From positions 1 to 37,943 of the forward strand of contig JALTFO010000306.1 of NCBI GenBank assembly GCA_027007005.1: 37,943 bases of DNA, in the 5' to 3' direction. The DNA comes from Candidatus Bipolaricaulota bacterium (lineage in GTDB: Bacteria > Bipolaricaulota > Bipolaricaulia > UBA7950 > UBA9294). The translations under genes and the position numbers were made by a program. Each line of letters starts with the position of its first letter. The first letter of the stretch is position 1. The notes under the pieces are model-generated. The model was not told the DNA's origin. It searched no databases and saw only the letters and a list, made by a program, of their open reading frames with translations. Positions 15,692 to 21,841 of this stretch are shown here, one piece after another.

Positions 15692-16561
15692 ATGGCTACG
15701 AATCTCGCTACGCCGATCAGTTCTCGGTTGCTCTCAACGCGTGCTCGAGAACTTCCCATTGCAGGGAAGATAGCGCGTAGAGAGGGTGAGCGGGTCAGTC
15801 TGTTTGGTATTCCCTTCTCCAGGCTCAGTCTAGCGAAGGCTCTCGACTTCACGCAAGGGATGCTGAACATGAACGGGTCGCACGTTGTTGTCACCCCAAA
15901 TACGGTCTCATTGATGCGCGCGCAGCAAGATGTGGCCCTCCTTGATTCCTATCGTCGCGCGGACTTGGTCGTAGCAGACGGAGCTGGGCTGGTGTGGGCA
16001 ACGCGCCTGCTCGGTATTCCGCTCCCCGAGCGCGTTCCTGGGATCGCGCTTGCTGAGGAGCTGCTGCGCATGGGCAACGATTGTGCGTGTCGAGTATTCC
16101 TCCTCGGTGGTAAGGAGGGTGTCTGTTTGCGGGCGAAGGAGCGTCTACTGCAGCGCTTCCCCGGCCTTCGTATTGTCGGCGTTCAGCACGGATTCTTTTC
16201 GGACGAGGAAGAAGTCATTAGTGCAATCGATAGAGCGCGGCCCGACCTGCTCCTTGTCGGGATGGGTGTCCCCCGCCAGGAGCTGTTCATGATGCGCGTT
16301 CGCGATAGATTGAATGTTCCGCTGATGATCGGGATCGGTGGCGCTCTTGACATCTTCTCCGGTGACCGCGTCCGCGCTCCGCGTATCTGGCAAAAGATGG
16401 GCCTTGAATGGCTGTTTCGTCTGCTTCAGGAGCCACGCAGAATGCGCGATGTCCTCCTGATCCCGCGATTCATGTTGCGGGTGCTGTGGATGCGTGGAAT
16501 TCTTTCCATCAAGGGTTTCCTCTCGATTTCCGAAAGACGCCGACCGGTCACATCTGACTAG
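15692..16561 (+). CDS. WecG/TagA/CpsF family glycosyltransferase (GT26)
   Basis: This 289-residue protein matches the GT26 family that adds N-acetylmannosamine-type sugars to lipid-linked cell-envelope precursors. Diagnostic blocks are VVVTPNTVSLMRA, ADLVVADGAGLVWATRLLG, ERVPGIAL, LLVGMGVPRQELF, and GGALDIFSGDRVRAPRIWQK with the following GLEWLFRLLQEPRRM. About 45 N-terminal residues are unlike the family and may be an extension. The SD is weak; a TGC-TAGGAT extended -10 ends nine bases before the ATG, so the mRNA may be leaderless. The stop codon shares CTAG with the recJ stop. The 115-bp gap after mnmE holds only a weak hairpin. The acceptor sugar is unknown. Confidence 0.9.
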   Translation: MATNLATPISSRLLSTRARELPIAGKIARREGERVSLFGIPFSRLSLAKALDFTQGMLNMNGSHVVVTPNTVSLMRAQQDVALLDSYRRADLVVADGAGLVWATRLLGIPLPERVPGIALAEELLRMGNDCACRVFLLGGKEGVCLRAKERLLQRFPGLRIVGVQHGFFSDEEEVISAIDRARPDLLLVGMGVPRQELFMMRVRDRLNVPLMIGIGGALDIFSGDRVRAPRIWQKMGLEWLFRLLQEPRRMRDVLLIPRFMLRVLWMRGILSIKGFLSISERRRPVTSD

Positions 16562-18279
16562 TCGCACTTGATAAGATCGACCACGTTTACCTGCACTGAG
16601 CCTTTCCAGTCGTCGAAGCCGGCGCGGAAGACGACGCACACCGGCCCGTCCTCGAACAGGTCAATGTGATTTGCCATGCGGAAAGCAATGAATGGGAGAG
16701 AGACACCGTTTTGCACCAGCCGCCCCTTGAGATGCTGCCTGCCTGAACCGACAAAGCTCATCCCTTCGAATAAGCAGTCACGCAGCAGGAGAATTGGAGA
16801 TGGATTCCCCGGCCCGTAGGGCGAGAGTGACCGTAGGTTAGTGTAGAAGCGGATATCGATCTCCCTTGCCGCAACTTCTGCGTCGATCATGTCCGCGCCA
16901 TACCCCACCTGAACCGGCTGCTGAGCCATGTAACTGTAGAGGCGTTGCCGCAACTCAGCTAACCGCTCGTTCTCAAGCGAAAAGCCCGCTGCCATCTTGT
17001 GTCCGCCATAGCGAAGCAAAAGGTCTGAGTGTGCGTTTAGGCACTCGGCCATGTCGAACCCCTCCACGCTGCGGCACGATGCGCGACTTACACGTTCACC
17101 TTGCGAGATGACAATCGCCGGCACGTGATAGCGATCGGCGAGGCTGGAAGCCGCGAGCCCGAGGATTCCCTCATTCCAGTGCTCACCCGAGAGGACAACT
17201 ATCCCATCGTCCCTAGGATTCGTCCCGTTTGTCGCAAGCTGCTCCTCTGCCTGTGCGATCAGGTCGCGCTGAGCGATCTCTCGATCGCGGTTGTAGTCGA
17301 GAAGGATCTCCGTCAGGTACTCAGCGCGGTTCTTGTCCTTCGTTGTCAGTAAGAGGAAGGCAACCTTTGGATCGCCAGCGCGGTTGGCAGCATTCAGTTT
17401 TGGGGCGATGAAGTAGCCGATGTCTCTTGCGTTGATCCGTTTCACGTTGATCGACAGCCTCTTAGCCAACACCTGCAGCCCAAGGGACGATCCCTCCCCG
17501 CGGGCGATGAGCGAGAATCCTTTGCGCACTAGGGCTCTGTTCTCGATTTCTGCACCTTCAGCGAGGGGCACGAGATCAGCTATTGTCCCCAAAGCAACAA
17601 GGTCGAGCAGATCATACGGAGTGGGGCGATTCAGATGTTCGTACAAGGCACACACGAGCTTAAATGCCACTCCCACTCCGGCCAAGTGTCGGTTGGGGTA
17701 GGAGTCTGTTGCTTGGTGAGCGTCGACTACGGCCGCTGCGGCAGGGACCCTATCTGTGGGCAGATGGTGGTCGGTGACAATCGTGTCGATACCCGCGTCA
17801 CGAAGGATACTGATCTCTTCGATGTTGGAGATTCCACAATCGACGGTGATGACCAAGCTAAATCCCTCTCCGATCGCGCGTTGGATGAATTTCTTCGACA
17901 GGCCATGACCATTTTCACGGTCGCCAACTTCCACCTTGATCGTTCCTGAGGGAAAGAGTGGAAGAAGTCCCAGATAGAGGACGGCTGCACCGGTTAATCC
18001 GTCGGCATCGAAGTCACCGTGGATATAGATCTTATCTTTGTTATCAAGCGCGGTGATAACACGCGCTACCGCGCTATCCATTCCGGATAGGAGGAAAGGA
18101 GAATGAAAGCGATCGATGTCGGGATCGATCAGTCTACGCCACTGTTCTCCTCCCCGATGGGCGAGGAGAACCGCAAACGGACAAGCGCAAGATAGGGAAG
18201 TGGCAATCTGGTCAACCAGGTTCTCTTCCGGGAGGGGAGAAATCTCCCATCTCCTCTCCCCCCGGATGAGGGACTTCAT
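16558..18279 (-). CDS. recJ: single-stranded-DNA exonuclease RecJ
   Basis: This 573-residue DHH-family 5'-3' exonuclease serves recombination and mismatch repair. Metal-binding motifs are DFDADG near residue 89, VDCGIS, and TDHHLP. The DHHA1 domain carries RYGGHKMAAGFSLE, and a C-terminal OB domain ends in VQVNVVDLIKCD. The start overlaps the secF stop by one base (TGATG), so it is co-translated with secF. Its stop overlaps that of the convergent glycosyltransferase on the palindrome CTAG. Length is normal. Confidence 0.95.
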   Translation of the reverse strand: MKSLIRGERRWEISPLPEENLVDQIATSLSCACPFAVLLAHRGGEQWRRLIDPDIDRFHSPFLLSGMDSAVARVITALDNKDKIYIHGDFDADGLTGAAVLYLGLLPLFPSGTIKVEVGDRENGHGLSKKFIQRAIGEGFSLVITVDCGISNIEEISILRDAGIDTIVTDHHLPTDRVPAAAAVVDAHQATDSYPNRHLAGVGVAFKLVCALYEHLNRPTPYDLLDLVALGTIADLVPLAEGAEIENRALVRKGFSLIARGEGSSLGLQVLAKRLSINVKRINARDIGYFIAPKLNAANRAGDPKVAFLLLTTKDKNRAEYLTEILLDYNRDREIAQRDLIAQAEEQLATNGTNPRDDGIVVLSGEHWNEGILGLAASSLADRYHVPAIVISQGERVSRASCRSVEGFDMAECLNAHSDLLLRYGGHKMAAGFSLENERLAELRQRLYSYMAQQPVQVGYGADMIDAEVAAREIDIRFYTNLRSLSPYGPGNPSPILLLRDCLFEGMSFVGSGRQHLKGRLVQNGVSLPFIAFRMANHIDLFEDGPVCVVFRAGFDDWKGSVQVNVVDLIKCD

Positions 18280-19199
18280 CAGTGTTGCTTAGCCTTAGCA
18301 GTCTTGAGAGGTGTTTTCTTAGCAGTTTTGAGCGTCCACGCATAGAGGATTGGATTGGCGATGTACATCGATGAGTAGGTACCGACAATAACGCCAATTA
18401 GCAGTGCCAGTGAAAAACCTCGCAGTACCGTCCCGCCAAACAGGAACAGGATGACTACTGGAATGAACGTGGTGAATGACGTATTCATTGTTCGTGAGAG
18501 AGATTGGTTGACACTTTTGTTGATGATATCGAAGATACGCATCTTCCTCTCAATCTTTACATTCTCGCGGATGCGGTCGAAGATGACAATTGTGTCGTTC
18601 AAAGAATATCCGATAATCGTCAGGAAGGCAGCGATTGTTGGGAGGTTGATCTCTATGTGGAAAAGCGCGAAGACTCCAAGCGCAATCGACACATCGTGGA
18701 TCAGAGCGACGACAGCGCCGACAGCGTAGCGCAGGCGGAATCGCCACGAGACGTAGATCATGATGACGACAAAAGCAAGCAAGATCGCCTGCCAACCCTT
18801 CTGGGTGAGCTCCTTGCTCACCTGCTGTCCGATCGAGCGGCGACTGATCTCATCGACCTTAAACTTGTCTTTCAGGGTGCTTTCGATGCGATTAATCGTA
18901 TCATGGTTCGCTTCCACATCGAGCTGGGTGGTGATAACCTTGCGATTCTTCCCCGATACATCCTGAATCACACTCTTGGAAAGGTCAACCGAACTGGGAA
19001 TCGCGGCAAGAACACTTCGCACATCTGACGTGCTCACAGGGTTCTTGAAGTCCACTGTAAACTCTGTCCCACCGGTGAAGTCAATTCCTGGGTTCAGTCC
19101 ACGTACCGCAGGGATAAGTAATATCCAACTAATCAATACTAGCGATATGGAGATAGGAACAAAGAACTTCGCTTTCCCGAGGATATCGAAATGGTGCAT
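18279..19199 (-). CDS. secF: protein translocase subunit SecF
   Basis: This 306-residue SecF has six transmembrane segments, the signature GIDFTGGTEFTVDF after the first helix, an extracytoplasmic loop, and IIGYSLNDTIVIFDRIREN in the second half, followed by SLSRTMNTSFTTF. SecDF uses the proton-motive force to assist export. SecF is normally encoded next to, or fused with, SecD; here the upstream neighbour is rpsT (11-bp gap) and no secD is in the window. The lysine-rich C-terminus (KTAKKTPLKTAKAKQ) is unusual but short. Confidence 0.95.
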   Translation of the reverse strand: MHHFDILGKAKFFVPISISLVLISWILLIPAVRGLNPGIDFTGGTEFTVDFKNPVSTSDVRSVLAAIPSSVDLSKSVIQDVSGKNRKVITTQLDVEANHDTINRIESTLKDKFKVDEISRRSIGQQVSKELTQKGWQAILLAFVVIMIYVSWRFRLRYAVGAVVALIHDVSIALGVFALFHIEINLPTIAAFLTIIGYSLNDTIVIFDRIRENVKIERKMRIFDIINKSVNQSLSRTMNTSFTTFIPVVILFLFGGTVLRGFSLALLIGVIVGTYSSMYIANPILYAWTLKTAKKTPLKTAKAKQH

Positions 19200-19210
19200 A
19201 CTCTAGCCTC

Positions 19211-19471
19211 CTACAGCGACTCAACCTTCCTTGTCCACCGGGACTTAATACGACTCGCCTTGTTCTTATGGATTGTGTGATGACGGGCCGCTTTGTCTGC
19301 CGCTTGCGCGAGTTCCGGGAGCAATGAACGAGCCGATTCTTTGTCTTGGGAGGCCAAATGCAGCCGAATCTGTCTGACAACGCTCTTGAGCGCTACCTTT
19401 CGCGTGTGGTTAAGCCTCCACCGCTTGTCATTCTGTCGCATACGTTTTTCAGCCGAACGAATATTAGGAAT
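19211..19471 (-). CDS. rpsT: ribosomal protein S20, apparently started at ATT
   Basis: This is small-subunit protein S20, about 86 residues, basic throughout (SAEKRMRQNDKRWRLNHTRK, HKNKASRIKSRWTRKV). The track begins at a GTG three codons upstream, but that GTG lies inside the SD AGAGGTGA. The family N-terminus M-A/P-N-I-K/R-S-A aligns with ATT CCT AAT ATT CGT, giving (M)PNIRSAEKR, and the ATT sits five bases after AGAGGTGA. I therefore call the rare start codon ATT. Escherichia coli rpsT also uses a non-AUG start (UUG) and is autoregulated. A hairpin lies directly upstream. secF and recJ follow in the same operon. Confidence 0.85.
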   Translation of the reverse strand: MPNIRSAEKRMRQNDKRWRLNHTRKVALKSVVRQIRLHLASQDKESARSLLPELAQAADKAARHHTIHKNKASRIKSRWTRKVESL

Positions 19472-19476
19472 TTCTA

Positions 19477-19520
19477 TCACCTCTGAAACTTAAGTCGTTG
19501 CTATATCTAATCAAGCAACG
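19477..19520 (-). promoter_or_regulatory. rpsT leader: hairpin plus SD
   Basis: In the minus-strand leader a perfect 6-bp stem CGTTGC/GCAACG encloses a 13-nt loop (19496-19520) and lies 10 bases before the SD AGAGGTGA. The predicted transcript begins about at the hairpin. By analogy with S20 autoregulation in Escherichia coli, it may be where S20 binds its own message. Confidence 0.35.
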
Positions 19521-19524
19521 CAGA

Positions 19525-19553
19525 ATTCTAGCGGATGGGCGTCGCGGATGCAA
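19525..19553 (-). promoter_or_regulatory. candidate promoter of rpsT-secF-recJ
   Basis: On the minus strand TTGCAT and TAGAAT (five of six to the -10 consensus) are 17 bp apart. The start site would fall at the foot of the leader hairpin, giving a leader of about 48 nt. Confidence 0.4.
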
Positions 19554-19640: not shown

Positions 19641-19660
19641 AAGGTGATGTTTATCACCTT
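19641..19660. repeat. 20-bp perfect inverted repeat in the rpsT-nrdD gap
   Basis: The dyad AAGGTGAT-GTTT-ATCACCTT lies between the divergent rpsT and nrdD promoters. There is no T-run after it on either strand, so an operator is more likely than a terminator. The rest of the gap of about 310 bp holds the two promoters and the rpsT leader; I see no ORF or RNA gene. Confidence 0.4.
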
Positions 19661-19783: not shown

Positions 19784-21841
19784 ATGAAATCAATCGTAAA
19801 ACGCGATGGTCGCGTCGTTTCGTTTGATGAAGCGAAGATAACAACAGCAATCTGGAAGGCAATGCGCGAGGTTGGCGACGGAGACGAGATCGAAGCCAAG
19901 CGCCTCTGCGAGCTTGTCACTGCCATACTGGATGAGCGCTTTCCAGTGGACTACCCAACGGTGGAGGAGATCCAGGACGTCGTCGAAGAGGCCCTGATCG
20001 AGGCGGGGTACGTCCGCACAGCCAAGGCGTACATTCTGTACCGAAAGCAGCATACTGACCTTCGTCAGTTGGACGGCCTGATGGCCGAAATACCGCTTGT
20101 AGATGATTATTTAAACGATCGCGATTGGCGGGTGCGCGAGAATAGCAACATGAGCTTCTCTCTTCAGGGGCTCAACACACACATCACTGAGCACGTGATC
20201 AGCCGCTACTGGCTTAGCAAGATCTATCCACAGCAGGTGCAGGAGACACACGATCGCGGCGACTTCCATATTCACGACCTGGGGACGTTGGGCGCGTACT
20301 GCGTTGGCTGGGACCTCCAGGATCTTCTCATGCGTGGCTTCCGCGGTGTGCGCGGGAAGGTAGAGTCTCGTCCGGCAAAGCACTTCCGGGTCGCACTATT
20401 GCAGGTAGTGAACTTCATGTACACTCTGCAGGGTGAGTCGGCGGGAGCACAGGCCTTTTCCAACCTGGATACGTACCTTGCTCCGTTCATCCGCTACGAC
20501 AACCTGAACTACGATGAAGTGAAGCAAAACCTGCAGGAATTCGTGTACAACATGAACGTGCCGACGCGCGTCGGTTTTCAGACTCCCTTTACCAACGTGA
20601 CGATCGATCTCGAAGTCCCTAAGTACATGAAGGACGATCATGTCATAATTGGCGGCGTGCTGCAGAAGTCTGTCTACGGTGATCATCAGCATGAAATGGA
20701 CATGTTCAACCGTGCCTTCGCCGAGGTGATGACCGAAGGTGACATGCACGGGCGGCCCTTCACCTTTCCCATTCCCACGTACAACATCACCGAAGAATTC
20801 AACTGGGATAACGAGAACCTTGCTCCTGTGTGGGAGATGACGGCAAAGTATGGCATCCCGTACTTCTCCAACTTCATCAACTCGGACATGAGCCCAGAGG
20901 ATGCGCGCTCGATGTGCTGTCGGCTGCGAATCGACAACCGTGAGTTGAAAAAGCGCGGCGGAGGCCTGTTTGGGGCCAATCCACTGACCGGTTCCATCGG
21001 AGTGGTCACCATCAACCTGCCACGCCTCGGCTACCTGGCTGAGAATGAAGCCGACTTCTTCTCTCGTTTGGAAGAGCTGATGGAGCTTGCAAAGAAGTCG
21101 CTCATCGTAAAGAGGAAAACCCTGGAAAACCTGACCGATCGCGGGCTGTACCCCTACTCGCGCTTCTATTTGCAATCGATCAAGGACCTTGAAGGCGGGT
21201 ACTGGAAGAACCACTTCTCGACGATCGGAATCATCGGGATGAACGAGGCGATCCTCAATCTGTATGGACTATCGATTGCCGATCCTGAGGGGCGCGAGTT
21301 CGCCGCGCGCGTCCTCGACTTCATGCGCGATCGTCTGGCTGACTTTCAGGAAGAGACCGGCGAGATCTTCAACCTGGAGGCAACACCGGCTGAGGGTGCA
21401 AGCTATCGTCTGGCCAAGCGCGACCTGGAGCGCTATCCCGATATCCGCATCTACAACTTAGAGCGCTATGGTGGAAACACTCCGTATTACACCAACTCCA
21501 CTCATCTGCCGGTCGGTCTCACAGAAGATCTGTTCGAGGCGCTCACGATGCAAGACCCGCTGCAGACACGCTACACGGGGGGCACCGTCTTCCACGGATT
21601 CCTCGGGGAGAGCAGTCCGACACCGGAGGCAGCAAAGCGCCTGGTGAGGAAAATCGCGGAGAACTTCCACCTCCCCTACTACACCCTCACCCCGACCTTC
21701 TCCATCTGTCCCAAGCACGGGTACATCCCAGGGGAACACAAGTATTGTCCCAAGTGTGACGAAGAACTAATAGAAAGCCTAAAAGAAAACAAATCTCAAG
21801 GAGGCGTGAAAGTTGAACTACAAAGAAGACCAAGATGGTAA
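19784..21841 (+). CDS. nrdD: anaerobic ribonucleoside-triphosphate reductase, catalytic part without glycyl-radical tail
   Basis: This 685-residue class III ribonucleotide reductase reduces NTPs to dNTPs without oxygen. Residues 1-95 are an ATP-cone allosteric domain (VKRDGRVVSFDEAKITTAI). The core carries MCCRLRID, with the thiyl-radical cysteine, followed by GGLFGANPLTGSIGVVTINL. Near the C-terminus is the zinc-binding segment CPKHGYIPGEHKYCPKC. The frame then ends in an unrelated tail (KVELQRRPRW) before the glycyl-radical loop, which lies in the next ORF in the +1 frame with a 29-bp overlap. The start has GAGGGGG four bases before the ATG. See the finding on the split gene. Confidence 0.95.
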   Translation: MKSIVKRDGRVVSFDEAKITTAIWKAMREVGDGDEIEAKRLCELVTAILDERFPVDYPTVEEIQDVVEEALIEAGYVRTAKAYILYRKQHTDLRQLDGLMAEIPLVDDYLNDRDWRVRENSNMSFSLQGLNTHITEHVISRYWLSKIYPQQVQETHDRGDFHIHDLGTLGAYCVGWDLQDLLMRGFRGVRGKVESRPAKHFRVALLQVVNFMYTLQGESAGAQAFSNLDTYLAPFIRYDNLNYDEVKQNLQEFVYNMNVPTRVGFQTPFTNVTIDLEVPKYMKDDHVIIGGVLQKSVYGDHQHEMDMFNRAFAEVMTEGDMHGRPFTFPIPTYNITEEFNWDNENLAPVWEMTAKYGIPYFSNFINSDMSPEDARSMCCRLRIDNRELKKRGGGLFGANPLTGSIGVVTINLPRLGYLAENEADFFSRLEELMELAKKSLIVKRKTLENLTDRGLYPYSRFYLQSIKDLEGGYWKNHFSTIGIIGMNEAILNLYGLSIADPEGREFAARVLDFMRDRLADFQEETGEIFNLEATPAEGASYRLAKRDLERYPDIRIYNLERYGGNTPYYTNSTHLPVGLTEDLFEALTMQDPLQTRYTGGTVFHGFLGESSPTPEAAKRLVRKIAENFHLPYYTLTPTFSICPKHGYIPGEHKYCPKCDEELIESLKENKSQGGVKVELQRRPRW

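Follow-up and report, generated by a model that had tools for sequence, protein, structure and literature searches.

The gene for ribosomal protein bS20 (rpsT) appears, from comparison of sequences, to start at a near-cognate AUH codon throughout the phylum Bipolaricaulota, and at AUU in the genome studied here. The explanation which we favor, and to which we give a probability of roughly 60%, is that this codon is deliberately weak, probably sensitive to IF3, and paired with a strong extended Shine-Dalgarno (SD) sequence, with no RNA operator being involved. We have classed it as a start of the infC type, borne by a gene for which weak starts were known before. To our knowledge near-cognate AUH starts occur in only a handful of bacterial genes, and it is unexpected that a phylum should have kept one, beside that of infC, on a gene whose product is an abundant ribosomal protein. 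No report of an rpsT gene with an AUH start was found in the literature searched, from which subscription papers and preprints were largely absent.

The rpsT locus

The window, that is, the whole stretch of 37,943 nucleotides which was analyzed, is contig C306 of a 2.67-Mb Candidatus Bipolaricaulota MAG. The features discussed are:

16558–18279, minus strand: recJ [TIGR00644, 473.4 bits; also by synteny], overlapping the secF stop
18279–19199, minus strand: secF [TIGR00966, 320.9 bits], starting 11 nt past the rpsT stop
19211–19471, minus strand: rpsT, ribosomal protein bS20, 86 aa [TIGR00029, PF01649]
19469–19471, minus strand: ATT start codon of rpsT; the homologous codon is ATT, ATA or ATC in 88 of 90 loci and ATG in two
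19476–19484, minus strand: extended SD AGAGGTGAT, of which GAGGTGAT can pair with the 16S tail GGATCACCTCCTTT of relatives
19478–19480, minus strand: in-frame GTG within the SD, chosen by the mechanical ORF list and rejected here as a start
19496–19520, minus strand: hairpin of 6–7 bp at the start of the leader (CGTTGCT...AGCAACG), function unsupported
19525–19530, minus strand: –10 element TAGAAT; TA(G/A)AAT in the genus, TANNAT in most of the family
19548–19553, minus strand: –35 element TTGCAT of the rpsT promoter, conserved, with a 17-bp spacer
19784–21841, plus strand: nrdD, the divergent neighbor [NF006126, 1037 bits]

The rpsT product matches TIGR00029 (S20, NCBIfam) with 73.6 bits over residues 2–83 (cut-off 33) and PF01649 with 69.9 bits (cut-off 29.5), and the profile match, which spans the whole protein, places it in bS20. 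The protein is 92–95% identical in relatives, Candidatus Bipolaricaulota MAGs among them. Judged by position, rpsT and secF form one operon. The order rpsT-secF-recJ (16558–19471 in the window), divergent from nrdD, is kept in families f1 and f2; the divergent nrdD arrangement as such is found in these two families and in most of f4. In families f3 and f7 secF is absent between rpsT and recJ.

Start codon of rpsT

Read from the ATT at 19471–19469 on the minus strand, the frame begins IPNIRSAEKRMR, ends at 19211, and yields (M)PNIRSAEKRM..., the conserved N-terminus of S20. The first-pass annotation, which was made from the window alone, had chosen ATT partly for this reason. ORF calling limited to ATG, GTG and TTG takes instead the GTG at 19480, which adds MIE to the protein; gene callers so restricted will misplace the S20 start in Bipolaricaulota genomes. 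The same annotation had held that the SD is spaced for ATT and not for GTG. This stands, the GTG (19480–19478) being the GTG of GAGGTGAT itself, inside the SD at 19484–19476 and without an SD of its own.

The comparative evidence, which was not available to that annotation, comes from 90 rpsT loci in 89 of 100 Bipolaricaulota genomes, representing nine families. The start codons were ATT (71), ATA (14), ATC (3) and ATG (2), so that the codon homologous to the ATT of the window is ATH (ATT, ATA or ATC) in 88 of the 90. As would be expected of the near-cognate AUH class, the ATH codon is conserved in relatives, and a usable canonical start is often missing: 39 of the 88 ATH loci lack any ATG, GTG or TTG in frame from the preceding stop down to the ATH, and in 22 of those 39 the gap between stop and ATH is a mere 1–2 codons. 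The distance from SD to start differs by 1–3 nt between lineages, by which the GTG shifts in and out of frame while the ATH stays. The position of the GTG is consequently occupied in relatives by GTG, by an in-frame TGA or by something else, a stop codon standing there in frame in many of them; ATG at this position, which would contradict a start at ATT, was looked for in these relatives and not encountered. One genome, G028, has an extra spacer base which brings the TGA of GAGGTGA into frame.

Could translation nevertheless start at the upstream GTG (MIEIPNIRS...), the ATT being an ordinary internal Ile codon? A GTG does lie in frame at –9 in 38 of the 90 loci and in nearly all those of the window's family, and ATT, ATA and ATC all specify Ile, as would suit a conserved internal residue. 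We consider this extremely improbable and already contradicted. The GTG belongs to the SD; the 39 ATH loci just mentioned have no canonical in-frame start at all; G028, with its in-frame TGA, comes from the same family as the window; the amino acids which the two spacer codons would specify are not conserved; family f2 carries ATG precisely at the ATH position; and codon usage at the site differs from that of Ile codons. The SD overlap, the in-frame stops in relatives and the codon usage led us to reject the GTG, and on these sequence comparisons it is close to certain that rpsT in the window starts at ATT.

The difference in codon usage is clearest in family f4, where all 36 loci start with ATT although Ile inside these genes is written ATC 90 times, ATT 8 times and ATA 7 times [Fisher p 4e-26, uncorrected for relatedness]. 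Since internal Ile is mostly ATC, the base is constrained as part of a start codon. Third-base entropy is 0 at codon 1 as against 1.70 bits at the adjacent, invariant Pro2.

In the S20 tree the ATG family f2 (two genomes) is nested within the ATH clade, and eight start-codon changes are needed, one of them to ATG, the alignment being short and many forks open. Family f2 retains the nrdD / rpsT-secF-recJ neighborhood, and its infC still starts at ATC. Because of its nested position and unchanged neighbors, the ATG of f2 is, as far as the sequences can tell, a reversion in place; replacement of rpsT by a foreign gene was rejected on the same two grounds. From the number of substitutions alone (one of the eight leading to ATG) it does not follow that selection acts against ATG, and the f4 pattern is the stronger evidence of constraint. 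Two genomes (G007 and G055) speak against a weak start, having an in-frame ATG two codons upstream of the ATH, although this ATG abuts the SD.

Shine-Dalgarno sequence

The 16S 3' tail is GGATCACCTCCTTT in five relatives of the class; a search of the window's own genome for 16S gave no match. At least six contiguous SD bases are present in 87 of the 90 rpsT loci, and the distance from the end of GGAGG to the ATN is 8–9 nt in 80 of the 90. The strong, extended and suitably spaced SD typical of AUH starts is thus present. Protein bS21 (PF01165) had no match in any of 100 Bipolaricaulota genomes; six of 14 control genomes matched. In E. coli bS21 would impede an extended SD helix (PMC13009471).

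Other genes and other phyla

As controls within these genomes, rpsO begins with ATG or GTG in all 37 loci, and each of the 30 rpsP loci begins with ATG, many of them preceded by that same GAGGTGA SD. Since rpsP pairs this SD with ATG, the extended SD of rpsT is no special compensation for its codon, a point against the weak-start reading. An ATH start is usual for infC, and infC in Bipolaricaulota starts at ATC, ATA or ATT. In a scan for ATH starts in two genomes, covering the window, about 180 kb more from its genome and 400 kb from a complete relative (about 620 kb), infC was the sole convincing further case. We therefore rejected the notion that ATH starts are common in these genomes, the other candidates being chance-like ORFs or having a canonical start nearby; a patatin-like ORF (L240), for instance, has an out-of-frame ATG beside its SD.

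For every infC of Bipolaricaulota that was examined, a reading from ATH at the conserved position is possible. In the window's genome (G000:C9:5998; L197, L238) this is an ATC preceded by TAGGAGGT, and a stop codon lies in frame a short distance upstream.

Outside the phylum no ATH was seen among about 120 resolved S20 starts, all of which were ATG, GTG or TTG, in a sample which took in Acidobacteriota, Bacteroidota, Myxococcota and others, was also centered on Krumholzibacteriia, Treponema and Planctomycetota genomes, and did not extend to the phyla nearest Bipolaricaulota.

Promoter and leader

The first-pass annotation had proposed a promoter with a 17-bp spacer, a 48-nt leader, and a hairpin at the start of that leader. 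The promoter, TTGCAT-17-TAGAAT, is present. Its –35 element is TTGCAT throughout the genus (four genomes of four) and mostly TTGAT(T/C) elsewhere in the family, and TTGAT(T/C)-17-TANNAT recurs at about the same place, 41–61 nt upstream of the start, through most of family f1. A promoter scan of the single sequence gave nothing at the tool's threshold, and the support comes from conservation across genomes. A leader of 48 nt is consistent with the position of this promoter.

The hairpin fared less well. The pairing of 6–7 bp can indeed be written, and yet its fold z-score (–0.70) is no better than chance. Among the four genomes of the genus two changes affect one side only, none affects both sides, and one pair is broken, and in the other genera in which it was sought the hairpin is absent. 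Of the two elements for which conservation in relatives had been suggested as a check, then, the start codon passed and the hairpin did not. Class-wide, rpsT leaders fold no better than shuffled sequences (mean z about +0.3), and Rfam gave no match in the window. A conserved structure with compensatory changes, as is expected of a structured ribosomal protein leader, was accordingly not found.

These data bear on a second alternative, namely that S20 regulates its own synthesis through the leader hairpin, the weak codon merely easing competition with the 30S subunit, as has been proposed for the UUG of E. coli. The proposal for E. coli was built, according to the account of Parsons et al. 1988 given in PMC10931766, on mutations in the leader and start codon, and a hairpin does occur here at the 5' end of the leader. 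Its restriction to one genus, its lack of covariation and a stability equal to that of shuffles caused us to reject it as an operator. On average the leaders of the sampled families show no more structure than shuffled sequences do, and for E. coli a measurable affinity of S20 toward its own mRNA was not demonstrated (PMC10931766). We regard this alternative as very unlikely.

Comparison with known systems

The closest parallel is infC with its AUU, AUC or AUA start. It shares with rpsT a near-cognate start, a strong SD, a function in translation and conservation across a phylum. The difference is that IF3 itself discriminates among start codons, which makes the infC loop direct, whereas S20 is a structural protein of the 30S subunit and any loop would be indirect.

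In E. coli the same gene has a weak non-AUG start, and the codon has been proposed to take part in control; the Bipolaricaulota gene shares the weak non-AUG start, though its ATT differs from UUG, a canonical start tolerated by IF3, as AUH is not. Furthermore, rpsT of E. coli is monocistronic, while by gene position it is not so here, where it heads rpsT-secF-recJ in conserved order with the gap of 11 nt before secF. A 2024 review of ribosomal proteins gives UUG, GUG and AUG as starts of rpsT, UUG being reported for some gamma-proteobacteria only, and states that autoregulation by S20 has been neither confirmed nor refuted even in E. coli, and knows of no operator structure (PMC10931766).

The S. 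aureus genes cvfC1 (AUU) and ccpN (AUA) resemble rpsT in combining AUH with an extended, start-proximal SD and in being conserved in related species, but they specify a small putative regulator and a repressor, unlike the abundant ribosomal protein considered here, and their conservation covers the Staphylococci, plus B. subtilis for ccpN, and not a whole phylum (PMC13009471). Streptomyces sigR is similar in that a noncanonical start was mis-called as a nearby upstream canonical codon; it differs in being a sigma factor gene with a GTC start and in that control by IF3 is experimental there, while here we infer it (PMC5472188).

Control of S20 synthesis

IF3 disfavors the third-base mismatch of AUH in the P site. 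In the mechanism which we favor the extended SD GAGGUGAU would set the AUH codon in the P site, and the initiator tRNA would pair with it by a third-position mismatch. S20 would then begin with fMet, which one would expect to be cleaved ahead of Pro2. Selection would keep the codon weak, and the rate of S20 synthesis would be set by the stringency with which 30S subunits discriminate among start codons, output being high if there is little IF3 per 30S subunit or the 30S is defective, and low if IF3 is plentiful. Control would act through the start codon, as in infC, and not through a protein-binding RNA hairpin.

It is by analogy that we assign reduced initiation and IF3 sensitivity to the AUH of rpsT. 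IF3 represses noncanonical starts, infC with AUU or AUC being an example (PMC5472188), and in S. aureus AUU and AUA starts with an extended SD give about 10% of the output of AUG, one of them climbing to 30% in rich medium (PMC13009471). The behavior of AUH toward IF3, these S. aureus precedents and the failure to find bS21 are our reasons for proposing that S20 output is low and dependent on stringency, which would reflect the amount of IF3 relative to 30S and perhaps the occupancy of the 30S by S20. The first-pass annotation had thought a switch sensitive to S20 or IF3 plausible. A putative link to IF3 or autoregulation is favored by the phylum-wide AUH, by infC being the other AUH gene and by the want of a conserved leader structure; feedback by S20 itself is conjecture. 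The weak start codon itself may control the amount of S20 made. The case, which is natural and spans the phylum, suggests that discrimination among start codons, and not an RNA operator, is at work in the control of S20. The same input could reach secF by coupling, the gap between rpsT and secF being only 11 nt.

Several observations sit uneasily with a deliberately weak start. Family f2 manages with ATG, and a weak start on an abundant protein must be offset by the level of mRNA. E. coli ribosomes without S20 are reported to be defective in mRNA association (PMC10931766), a defect which would not obviously favor weak starts.

A third alternative accepts the AUH codon as real and sees in it a low-expression tuning frozen since the ancestor of the phylum, which without feedback merely sets the S20 level against a strong promoter and SD. 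Inheritance across the phylum with ATT, ATA and ATC interchanging, the lack of any other conserved regulatory element, and the S. aureus AUU and AUA starts, at about 10% of AUG and with little or no effect of medium in two of three (PMC13009471), are all compatible with it. A constant level could be reached more easily, however, through the SD, the promoter or UUG, and that infC and rpsT have both kept a codon sensitive to discrimination hints at an input which the two genes share and which depends on conditions. We judge frozen tuning to be unlikely, though the most credible of the alternatives.

The favored reading, a weak and probably IF3-sensitive codon, may be carried a step further. S20 and IF3 might be held in homeostasis throughout the phylum by P-site start-codon discrimination alone: 30S subunits short of IF3 or of S20 would be poor at discriminating, would admit AUH, and would in this way raise the production of S20. 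If true, this would be an operator-free feedback sensing the quality of the 30S subunit, and it would account for no S20 operator having been found. We put it forward tentatively, and would not at present bet on it.

Other observations

One MAG (G054) has two different S20 genes on two contigs (L013 and L111), both with ATT; this reflects either a mixed bin or a duplication. Between rpsT and nrdD, at 19641–19660, lies a perfect palindrome, AAGGTGAT-AAAC-ATCACCTT, which is shared with G001 and absent from the other relatives compared. It is possibly an operator of nrdD.
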